A stretch of 64,000 nt of DNA from Rhododendron vialii (Eukaryota > Streptophyta > Magnoliopsida > Ericales > Ericaceae), in assembly GCF_030253575.1 (NCBI RefSeq), contig NC_080561.1:36513564-36577563 (forward strand). Reading direction: 5' to 3'. Positions 3,128 to 56,300 of the stretch are shown piece by piece. A program made the position numbers and the translations under genes. How positions within the stretch are numbered: the first letter of the stretch is position 1; every line of letters begins with the position of its first letter. The notes under the pieces were generated by a model. It ran no database searches and had not been told where the DNA came from. It worked only from the letters and a program-made list of their open reading frames with translations.

Positions 3128-5568
3128 TGTCACGCCCCGCCCCGCAAACGGCACCCAAAGTGGGCCCGAGTCGACGCGACCACATGGCATTCCACACAGG
3201 AGACCAAGCCATACCTCATAACCTGTCAGAAATAAACACCTAGCGGAAGGCTTATCACCTTAACATAAAAATGAGTCAACGTATTGACCAACCAACCATG
3301 ACATCACACAGCCAAAAAATAACATCTGCGTTATAGTATTTTAAAAATTCTATACTTCAACACATCCACCGACGACTTACTTACAACTTGAATAAACCAA
3401 CTTCTTCATCAACCACCTACAACAAACTCGACCATCCACAACGTCCAAGGCTAACCTCAAATAGAACGCCAGCCATCGACCAAATTTAATTACAACCTAT
3501 ACAATTTAAAAGCTTTAATTATCCTTAGTTACAACTCCTTACAAATTAAGTTCTGCACCAGCTAAGGTGAGTCCACAACGTAACCAAAACCCCACCTGAC
3601 GCTAGCAAACACCTTAACACAACGACTAGTAGTGGACTCACTCTAAACAACCTGCTACCTGACAGACCAAAAAGGGAAGGCAAAGTGTGTAAGATATAGA
3701 AACGCTCAATATAATACCACAATACCCCAAGGAATATCAACAAGAATACACATCACCAGCGTAACTGAAATACTCGAATGTATACAACAGTTATAACCAA
3801 CTTGTCCACTCAACTGTGTAGTAACATACGATGTACAATAAAATGAATATAATCACATCACATGCAGTGACACGTCTGCCACATCGCATGTACCCAAGAC
3901 AATGTGTCCCACATACCATGCTCTCATCAACCGATAATTAGCCAGCATGACATACAACATGGTATGCCTCACACGCTAACCTTCGGCGGTTCAATCAACA
4001 CCCATCGGCATGCATATTCATCTAACACGCATATCACAACCAAATCTCGTGTCCCACACACTATGCTCCCAACCATCGTCCATTGAACGATGGCTTACGA
4101 CATGGTGTGCCTCACACGCAAACATTCACAACATATCAAAAGCTAACAGCAATAGCATGATATACACCCCTCACTACAACAATATCTCATTAAAGATAAC
4201 CATATCAAAAGCTAAACACAATTAGCAAGATATACACTCACCACCACAACAGTATTATATGGAGAAGAACCATATCAAACACACTCACCTTTGCATCGAC
4301 CGAGATACGCCAAACTTACGGTTTTCGCACCTCCTATCTGACCAGCTCATTACCTAGTCACAGGCTAACTCCTATTAGCATACAAATCCCTTCGAATGTT
4401 TAAGTAAATATATGATACACCCCATAATATATTTACCATGCTAACAAGTGTCAAAAAAAGTTAACAAGGCCACCAACACCCCTAAACCATTTAACAATTA
4501 TTTGATACCAAAATATAAAACTAATAAGGTATTAGATGATACCCAACGAATACAAATATGTCCATCTTAAGGCTTAGAAGTGCCTCCAATCAAACGTAAG
4601 AGTATAAATATGACATAACTCTTAAAATTGGTTTGAAAACCATGACCTTCCTGTCGTATTCTGACCATAACTTTTTATTGGTTAAGAACCAGGTTATGAG
4701 ACCACCACCATTAGAAAGTACACATTTGGTACATGAATTTTGATATAATATTTGCCCAACATAGAGTCCGAACGACAAAGTTATGCTTGTCCGAAGTTAC
4801 ATACACAACTGCCCAAAATTGTAGATTATGCACGTCTATCAACTTCAAATCAAAAATTGATTTAACCTAGTACAAACTAAGCCACAACCCCTACATATTC
4901 CGAAAGTTATACGAGTCTAGTTTCAGAATCAAAAATCCGTGCGCAAACCCGATACTCGAGCTAAGAGATATGACCATGCAGCAACTACAAAACTCAACAG
5001 GGTTACACCAACTTGTAAAATCTGCCAAACTTAGAATATGCATCTAATAAATCCCAAATTTCGTAGAGATCATAACATATCAAAGTTTATCCCTGATTTT
5101 TTCTCATATTTTTCACAATAAAGGAACCTAGTCAAAATCACCTCCGAACTCAGAAATTCTGTGCAGCGAAGTACAATTTCTAGCAGAATATCTGTGTTCA
5201 AAAATTTATTAAAAATCGAATACTTAATACTTTTTGGTAATTCTAATGCCAAAATATCACCAATTTATCAATCTTTCAGACTCATAAGGACCCATAATCA
5301 GGAGAATTGTTTAACTATAAAAAACTTGATGCATAACACAGATCTGTAAGCTGTTTGCACAAAACCAGCAATCCAACTACAGCTTGGTTTATGATTTTTA
5401 TCTTTTTCTACACTTCTCAGAAAATTTTGAAAATTTAACATGATACAATAGACACACATATAAACATCCAGTAATTATTACAAGAATTTAGAAGCTTTCT
5501 AGATATCTCGAATAATTCCTTGAAGAGCAGCCTAGAGTTTCCTCCTCTTTTCCCCTTCCTCCTCTCCT

Positions 5569-53347: not shown

Positions 53348-56300
53348 TTAAGGGGATTCACTCCCTCTTGGGGAACGGCGGTTATCATCGTCATCGTCTT
53401 CATCACCATCAACAGGGCTGTGGTCATCCCGAGGGCTAGGGCTGCGGCTGTGGCCGTGGCCATTAGCTTCAGATGGGCTATGATACCTTCCAGCAGCAGC
53501 CGGACTATTATCCCGTTCAGGACTCTCATACCTCTCACCATCAGGACTCTCTCTTTCAGGGCTCTGATACCCCCCAGCAGCAGCAGGACTATCCCTTTCA
53601 GGGCTTCCGCTATTTGCTCGGGGGCTCTCACTTGCTAGCCTCTCTCCATTAGGAGAAGGGCTATTCCTCTCTCCGCTGACAACATCTTCCACCTCCTCAG
53701 GTGTTGGGCTGCGCTTCCTTGCTTTTGAAGGAGGTGGAGTTCCCCTACTCGGCTCAGGGCTTCTACTGTAGCTCCTTGGTCGTTTCTCTCCATGTTCCCT
53801 TCGTGGAGATCGTGATTGGCTGACAACAAAATGTAACTGTTTAAATAAATAGGTTGGAATTTTTTGAGAAAATATGCCATATCAAGATATTATTGCGGAC
53901 AAATTGGTAATCACATAATTCATAATTATAATCCGATAGCACAATCATGTGTGTGATACTTTTTATCAAAAGCTATTGACGATTGACTCTAACTAATATT
54001 GAGCACGCGCTAGTCTATACCTATATGAAAAGTAAAGCTATTGACGATTGATTCTAACCAAAATTGAGCACGCACTAGTCTATACCTATATTAAAAGAGG
54101 GAGTTGCAAGCAGCTCTTGGTAGTTGCAAGGAATCTATACCTATATTAAAAGAGGTAGTTGCAAGCAGTTCTTGGACACCACCTTTTCACTTGCTGAAAT
54201 TACGTCTGTGACCATTGTTTTCCTAAATTACAACCGTACCCAAGTTCCAAACAAATGAAACAGCACAACCACCCCTTTCTTCCTCATATATACCTACCGA
54301 ATTCATATCCAATTGGCTAATGGAATGACCGCTCAAAACTTTGCAGCAAGCAGAAGTTCTTGGCGCCCTTGCAAAGAAATTTGTGCCCCTCGCCGACTAA
54401 GCGCTTCAAGTTGTGATTTCGAGTCAGCCGAGAGAAGGCGGTGCCTAACTTTACACCCTCCTCTTCCTAAGTTATTACCCAAACACCCTACAGCCACAAA
54501 ATAACGTACGTCGTCTCTAGCCACCATTTTTTGTTCATCAGGCTTCTAGACTTTGCACTGCATGTTGGACATTTATTACTCGGGACCCGTAAAATGCATT
54601 CAAATTTGATGTTTAGTTTGTTTAACATGTACTTATTGAGAGAACACGTAGGGATCACTATTGAAGTTTAAGCCACAATATCATATAAAAATACCAGAGC
54701 CCAAGGTATTTTACTCGGCGAACACTATAACTGACCGATTAAAAGTTTAAACATGATAAATACCAAAAGTCGTATTAATGATGGAGCAATTCTGGCCACT
54801 GAAATATTTTATATGCTACTGTATGGGGGAAAAATATGAAAGATATGGTTGAACATTGACATTAATAGGAAAGATTGACAGTTATAATCAACAGAAATAG
54901 TACCATAAAACCTATAATAGATTGTTTGGCAAAAAGCCTTCCAAAACATGGAGTCAACTAACGAAGGTGATTGGGCAATTTTGATACATACACAAATGAA
55001 GCTTATCAATGATAAAGTTGTGAATCTCTATGATTACTTGTTTATCATCAACATATATTAATGTGTGTCTAATGTCTTCAATAAGAATCTGTTAATGAGT
55101 AATCTTGACAAAAAAATTAATTTGATAGAAGATTTTGCCAATATATGACAACCAACATTGAGCACGTGCTCAATGCTAGTATATTAAAAAGAGGAACTCC
55201 TCCCTCGTTAAATGAAACCGATAACATAGTTGTTAGACCATCTCCGACCCTCACTCAAACTATTACTCAAGCTTGAGTAAAAACGTAATTTGATATGAAG
55301 CACTCCAATGGAAAAACTCAATTTTAAGCATAAGTACTTTATTAAGGGCAGAATTGTGAATTTGGAAGACAGAAAATGGCCTTCAGAAGATGAGTGCCAC
55401 TTGATTCCAGTAGAACTCAATCTGGTATAGGTTTAAGTCAAGAAGTGGAGGGAACAGATGAGGGAGGATTACAAATATTTGAGTTTGAGCACATATTTAA
55501 GGGTTGGAGATGCTCTTACAGCAAGAAGGGTTCCAAACAATATGTAGTTATTTAGAAATGGTTATACTCATCCCGTAAAAACATCATCATGAACCATTCA
55601 CTTGCCTCTTTCAAGTTTCGACTACAAAGCGCAAAATATAGGCAGTGGACATGATAACTAAACCTATCATAAACACTGCACCAAAGAGGTAAAAACTAAC
55701 CTGTAGCTACGGCTTCGACTGTAGCTTCGACTTCTACCGCGACGAGGAGAGGGCGATCGTGAGTAACTCCGTCCACGTCTGTAATACGACCAAATTATTA
55801 ATTCACTAAATGACTGAAAGCGATGACAAGGTACTAATCTAAAATGCTATACAATAAGTAACATAAGAAGAAGAATCAGAAAATCCTCAAGTACTTGAGC
55901 TTTTTGGGACTATTCTGGCAATTTCTCTCTATGTGGCCCCTATCACCACAGCGGTAACATTTGTTCTTCCAGTCTCCAGCTTTGCAATCTCGAGCCCAGT
56001 GACCGTCAAGGCCGCAGTTGAAACACCTTCCAGATCCAGGAGGAGGACCTCTGCCCAGATATTCTCTTGAACCGCGTGGCACCTACATTAAAAGGATCAG
56101 TTACGCGCAGTTTCATTACATAAGTATGACAAAATCACCAAAAGTCCAAGCTTACAAGGTAACACCAACATAGACATAGCTCACAGACTAGAGAATTGCC
56201 ACATACCAGTCATGAACTAGAGGTAAAAGATAATGGTTTTGATAACAACAAAACCATAAATAAAGGGGGAACATTTATGACATCAATCCCATCATCCAAG

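Follow-up and report, generated by a model that had tools for sequence, protein, structure and literature searches.

Two Helitrons joined head to tail in an SR-gene intron of Rhododendron vialii, with a probable local duplication across the joint

Results

The Locus

The stretch of Rhododendron vialii DNA that we have analysed (64,000 nucleotides in all, called here the window) carries on its minus strand an SR gene with two CCHC zinc knuckles (Pfam zf-CCHC) and an RS-rich tail, which we take to be RS2Z, and a single intron of this gene holds all of the Helitron pieces that concern us (Table 1). The limits of that intron were set by the GT and AG of the DNA, independently of transcripts; the first-exon piece of the gene, P0002, has no Pfam match. 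The 3' splice site of the intron and the start of the truncated element that we call Helitron A are 26 bp apart (window 53820-53846), and the region upstream of the SR-gene acceptor may be supplied by Helitron-derived DNA. The intron also contains a MITE-like insert at 55231-55520, presumably Tourist-like, which is bordered by TTA on both sides and has inverted ends (55231-55251 and 55500-55520) identical at 18 of 21 bases; a repeat search at the default seed gave no pair for these ends.

Table 1. Features of the intron, in window coordinates
Feature	Coordinates	Strand	Remarks
SR-gene intron holding all Helitron pieces	53820-55700	-	Donor CTACAG/GTTAGT, acceptor TTGTCAG/CC; flanking coding exons
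Helitron A, 5'-truncated 3' part	53846-54013	+	Ends GCGCTAG; multi-copy subfamily; homology to L048 from 53846
Copy 1 of probable 65-bp tandem duplication	53969-54033	+	45 bp of A 3' end plus 20 bp of next 5' end; 92%
65-bp TC...CTAG unit, the probable duplication as parsed between the two junctions	54014-54078	+
Copy 2 of probable 65-bp tandem duplication	54034-54098	+	Deletion in common with copy 1
Extra 5' end, 42 bp, plus 13 bp TAGTTGCAAGGAA (54121-54133)	54079-54133	+	95% like 54134-54175
Helitron B, 1,046 bp	54134-55179	+	5' TC, 3' GCTAG; A (54133) before it, T (55180) after it
Terminal hairpin of Helitron B, 18-base perfect palindrome	55157-55174	+	Predicted -11.1 kcal/mol
3' flank of Helitron B, TATATTAAAAAGAGG	55180-55194	+	Like bases 9-22 of the 5' end

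Read along the plus strand, CTAG at 54010-54013 is followed directly by TCTATACCTATATGAAAAG (54014-54032), CTAG at 54075-54078 is followed directly by TCTATACCTATATTAAAAG (54079-54097), and TCTATACCTATATTAAAAG comes again at 54134-54152, this time with GGAA before it. The 5' motif TCTATACC stands at all three places (54014, 54079 and 54134), the first two right after CTAG, and the perfect palindrome, ATTGAGCACGTGCTCAAT, leads into GCTAG and the last 3' end. All of the termini that a sequence-only reading of this DNA had claimed, at 54013/54014, 54078/54079, 54134 and 55179, are thus in place, along with the 18-base palindrome. Two repeats run through them: a pair spaced by 65 bp (53969-54032 and 54034-54097; 92% identity, with 5 differences in 64) and a pair of 5' ends (54079-54120 and 54134-54175; 95% identity).

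Helitrons A and B

Helitron B has the features that one expects of a Helitron: a 5' TC and a 3' CTRR end, a palindrome near the 3' end and insertion between A and T with no duplication of the target, the last of these read from the flanks of B and of its one other copy found in the genome (532.6 Mb in 13 contigs; copy counts are lower bounds). That dispersed copy, three pieces within C11:38865933-38867369 at 79-90% identity, has the same ends: homology between the two starts at TC and stops at CTAG, and each copy has A before it and T after it. The pattern TCTATACCTATATTAAAAGAGG, with up to three mismatches, gave eight matches, two of them here, one at the C11 copy and five at other places, and its reversed control gave 10. 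Near its 3' end (L003, about 3984-4123), the C11 copy is interrupted by a stretch missing from B, which looks to us like a tRNA-derived SINE. We rejected the idea that B is just intron sequence conserved among paralogous SR genes, because no SR exon turned up at the C11 locus in tblastn with five SR-gene pieces, and scans of IMG/VR found 0 stretches with the 5' end and 0 with the palindrome.

The sequence that follows B resembles the 5' end minus its first 8 bases, with a score equalled by 17 of the 62,521 overlapping 30-mers of the window, and a genome search with 55180-55239 matched only itself; on that likeness, the flank is a possible further 5'-end remnant. The 3' flank of the C11 copy was dropped as a candidate 5' end, its score being one that 28% of window 30-mers reach.

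Helitron A belongs to a dispersed subfamily whose 3' end is CTAG. The query 53824-54013 found itself, the 65-bp unit and 13 other matches (75-93% identity), and with a longer copy of the subfamily, 22 candidates yielded 29 matches, among which are the place of that copy and the window. The ends of L045, of its inverted neighbour and of L054 are GCGCTAG, then T. Outside the window, 15 A-subfamily 3' ends were read and 12 were aligned, the remainder being L044 (extra 3'-end sequence) and L051 and L053 (early homology stop); L044 and L053 have sequence after CTAAT that is absent from A and from the 65-bp unit. The subfamily's matches are 68-93% identical to the queries, and pattern searches miss ends with more than three mismatches. 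Two of its members have arrangements of their own: L048 (1680-1727) has its 3' end tandemly repeated without any 5' end, and L045 (1145-1669) has two 3' parts side by side in inverted orientation.

How are A and B related? They are 59.6-62.3% identical over parts of the 3' half, and the B-type 5' end is 83% identical to that of L048 over 30 bases; by these comparisons, A and B are distant relatives that belong to different Helitron subfamilies. The termini in the SR-gene intron are real Helitron ends, as had been claimed for them, with a copy of B on C11 that begins with TC and ends with CTAG and an A that belongs to a dispersed CTAG-ending subfamily. One genuine head-to-tail joint (3' CTAG/TC 5') between two different Helitrons is present.

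The 65-bp Block

What, then, is the 65-bp unit that lies between the two junctions? It starts with TC, ends with CTAG and is abutted exactly by its neighbours; that is, the same bases parse exactly as TC...CTAG, and the termini alone are compatible with a real miniature Helitron, inserted head to tail. By substitutions, A is also at least as close to L047 as it is to the 3' part of the unit. A tandem duplication across a CTAG/TC joint would necessarily give such a unit, however, so the exact ends need no separate explanation.

The edges of the repeated block, TATCAAAAG (53964-53972) and TATTAAAAG (54089-54097), match at 8 of 9 bases and fall inside A and inside the next element, off the element termini. 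Short matching edges are the usual footprint of slippage or microhomology-mediated duplication. The same ~10-12 bp before ATTGAG are also missing from the A end (53969-54013) and from 54034-54078, the 3' part of the unit; this segment is present in the 12 other A-subfamily ends that were aligned (partly, in L052), and the length from ATTGAG to CTAG is 16 bases in both of them versus 23-34 in 6 other ends. The block therefore has both marks of an ordinary duplication, edges unrelated to termini and a variant (the deletion) unseen in the 12 other aligned ends, and the simplest account of the common deletion would be a single origin at this site. Over the 29 bases of core that precede the deletion, 3 positions separate the A end from the unit and 2-6 separate it from six other copies, so a local origin does not follow from substitutions alone. 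The 3'-end repeat of L048, which includes no 5' end, was counted in favour of local duplication.

Searched alone in the genome, the unit matched only its own place and the adjoining A end, a search that diverged copies could escape; the query 53969-54178, which missed A copies found with 53824-54013, is weak on the absence of 3'-end matches. No 3' hairpin is predicted for the unit (0.0 kcal/mol), and since weak hairpins are predicted in other A-subfamily copies too (-2.0 kcal/mol in L054 and -2.7 in L042), hairpin loss is no mark private to this locus. A unit with no dispersed copies found, no predicted 3' hairpin and a deletion in common with the copy that adjoins it is very improbable as a miniature Helitron, and this part of the sequence-only reading we would give up. 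Of the head-to-tail chain that it had described in the intron, at least one precise CTAG/TC joint stands, and the 65-bp repeat is, judging from its edges and its deletion, most likely a tandem duplication and neither a mini-Helitron nor a rolling-circle concatemer. That reading had itself set against the chain a local duplication of the termini together with flanking non-Helitron bases. For the most part, this is what we see, since the block runs from the interior of one element into that of the next, but the extra bases that it carries are Helitron-internal, not host.

How Common Is the Joint?

If joints of this sort came from rolling-circle read-through, as had been suggested, one might look for many CTAG/TCTATACC junctions across the genome. 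They were not found. The pattern CTAGTCTATACCTATATTAAAAG, with up to three mismatches, has four matches in the 532.6 Mb, and its reversed control has five; the four are the two junctions here, the 54134 end (with GGAA for CTAG) and a 3-mismatch match on C4, so that apart from this control-level match, nothing elsewhere in the whole genome joined CTAG to a B-type 5' end at that threshold. The corresponding pattern for the A-type 5' end, with three matches versus two in the control, was not above control either: one match is the L048 end itself (CTCT before it), one starts with GTAG, and one lies at C5:30651778. The last (30651778-30651800 of C5 in G000, minus strand) starts with CTAGTC and has 3 mismatches in the 5' end, which is control level. 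In 273,901 bases, made up of L003, the window and twenty 10-kb stretches of C5, there was no CTAGTCTATA besides the two junctions.

The ends themselves can be read from either side. Among the aligned A-subfamily 3' ends, 11 have a readable flank, and none of these is followed by a recognisable 5' end, with L047 ambiguous and the L050 flank after CTAG outside the comparison. At about 1640-1660 of L047, the 3' end reads CTAG/TCATTAAAAAGG, with CTAG then directly TCATTAAAAAGGTAG, and going by its letters, the sequence after CTAG is possibly another degenerate 5' end. Nor does any of four other 5' ends (those of L044, the second copy in L045, L048 and C11, the first two tentative) come directly after CTAG; the C11 end has a CTAG that begins 10 bp before it.

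These counts bear on the idea of a concatemer, formed by rolling-circle read-through or by integration of a circular intermediate. Such an origin has precedents of several kinds: exact CTAG-TC joints on Helraiser circles (PMC4778049), the rolling-circle origin that has been postulated for tandem copies in bat (cited in PMC2267711), rolling-circle replication as one of the two explanations offered for a triple in a fungus (PMC5148889) and failed termination proposed for short Arabidopsis Helitron arrays (PMC10701932). The pieces joined here belong to different subfamilies, however, and the repeated unit is 65 bp and not an element; the intron does not contain an element repeated at full length with exact joints. 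With CTAG-5'-end joints not found elsewhere (B-type) or not above control (A-type), and with the flanks of the A-subfamily ends as just described, we consider a concatemer, and with it read-through, highly improbable.

The Extra 5' End

The 5' end at 54079 is a problem of its own. Its 42 bp retain two bases that are found in the C11 copy and not in B, the 13 bp that follow (TAGTTGCAAGGAA, 54121-54133) resemble 54156-54168, and these 13 bp, together with five extra bases (TAAAG) in the duplication joint, go beyond one simple duplication. Since one other copy of B was found, a local origin is the more likely one for a B-type 5' end that has 95% identity and lies 55 bp from B's own, and we prefer to see the extra end as a probable second local duplication that involved template switching. 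A nested insertion is possible.

The latter possibility can be extended into a series of canonical insertions, in which an element C (5' end at 54079) would have come first, A would have inserted at the A^T made with C's TC, B would have entered C at an A^T, 55 bp in, and only the 65-bp block would be a local duplication. B does sit between A and T, as expected of a separate insertion; the 42 bp at 54079 do have the two C11-like bases that B lacks; and in the parts of the literature drawn on here, there is an A^T(C) model for maize (PMC2267711) and the suggestion of repeated insertion into another Helitron's 5' end for three tandem copies (PMC5148889). Yet the 54079 end is 95% like B, of which the whole genome yielded one other copy, and no remainder of C is recognisable after B, where 55180-55239 has no match beyond itself. 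We regard the full series as unlikely, although less so than the other alternatives weighed here. Tandem insertion at the same AT site, which the sequence-only reading had offered as the other source of its chain, remains a good account of the A-B joint.

Discussion

In the history that we prefer, the intron has two related, different Helitrons in head-to-tail order, the 5'-truncated A, which ends at 54013, and B, which runs to 55179; 65 bp across their joint (45 bp of A and 20 bp of B) would later have been tandemly duplicated, with TATCAAAAG and TATTAAAAG as the probable sites of replication slippage or of template switching; and a second local event would have repeated the first 42 bp of B, leaving the extra 5' end at 54079. 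The core of this history, one real joint and a local duplication of 65 bp, we hold to be very probable. The whole of it, with the second local event that repeats the start of B, we put forward with moderate confidence: the ends, the two subfamilies, the repeats and the common deletion are observed, and the order of events, insertion at A^T(C) and the slippage mechanism are what we infer.

Exact CTAG/TC joints have already been published for bat and maize, and the joint here is of a known kind, an ordinary example. At maize r1 (Du et al. 2008, PMC2267711), an exact CTAG/TC joint of two different Helitrons was read as consecutive insertions, one option being insertion at the A^T formed with the resident element's TC; the likeness to our locus is close, although here the left element is truncated, the joint has probably since been duplicated locally, and a single genome was read. 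The perfect head-to-tail joints of Myotis lucifugus (Pritham and Feschotte 2007, as cited in PMC2267711) were read as tandem repeats, whereas the neighbours here belong to different subfamilies. With Helraiser (Grabundzija et al. 2016, PMC4778049), the exact joints of 5' TC to 3' CTAG lie within one element and come from transposition circles in an assay; here, the joint is between two Helitrons.

Longer arrays are known as well. For three tandem Helitron copies in a fungus, nested insertion or rolling-circle replication was offered (PMC5148889), and the tandem, truncated Helitrons of plant centromeres (Xiong et al. 2016, as cited in PMC5148889) were attributed to multiple tandem insertions; the latter share truncation and tandem order with our locus, which has one small duplication in an intron. 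The tRNA-Cys cluster of Arabidopsis is described as an array of short Helitrons, which failed termination may duplicate locally (PMC10701932). It resembles the present case in its short tandem units with CTAG signals, but its units are of ~0.4 kb with a tRNA gene, and here, there is a 65-bp block across the joint of two subfamilies.

One might still imagine that the hairpinless unit was copied by the Helitron machinery itself, in one-ended or terminator-bypassing rolling-circle synthesis around the CTAG/TC joint. We think this very improbable. If it were true, the transposase, and not slippage, could make arrays of termini, and the intron would preserve a genomic trace of terminus-level rolling-circle amplification. 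On the reading that we prefer, a local duplication across one joint, the meaning is more modest: slippage close to where two Helitrons meet can produce what looks like tandem mini-Helitrons, which is a caution against calling Helitrons by their TC and CTRR ends alone.
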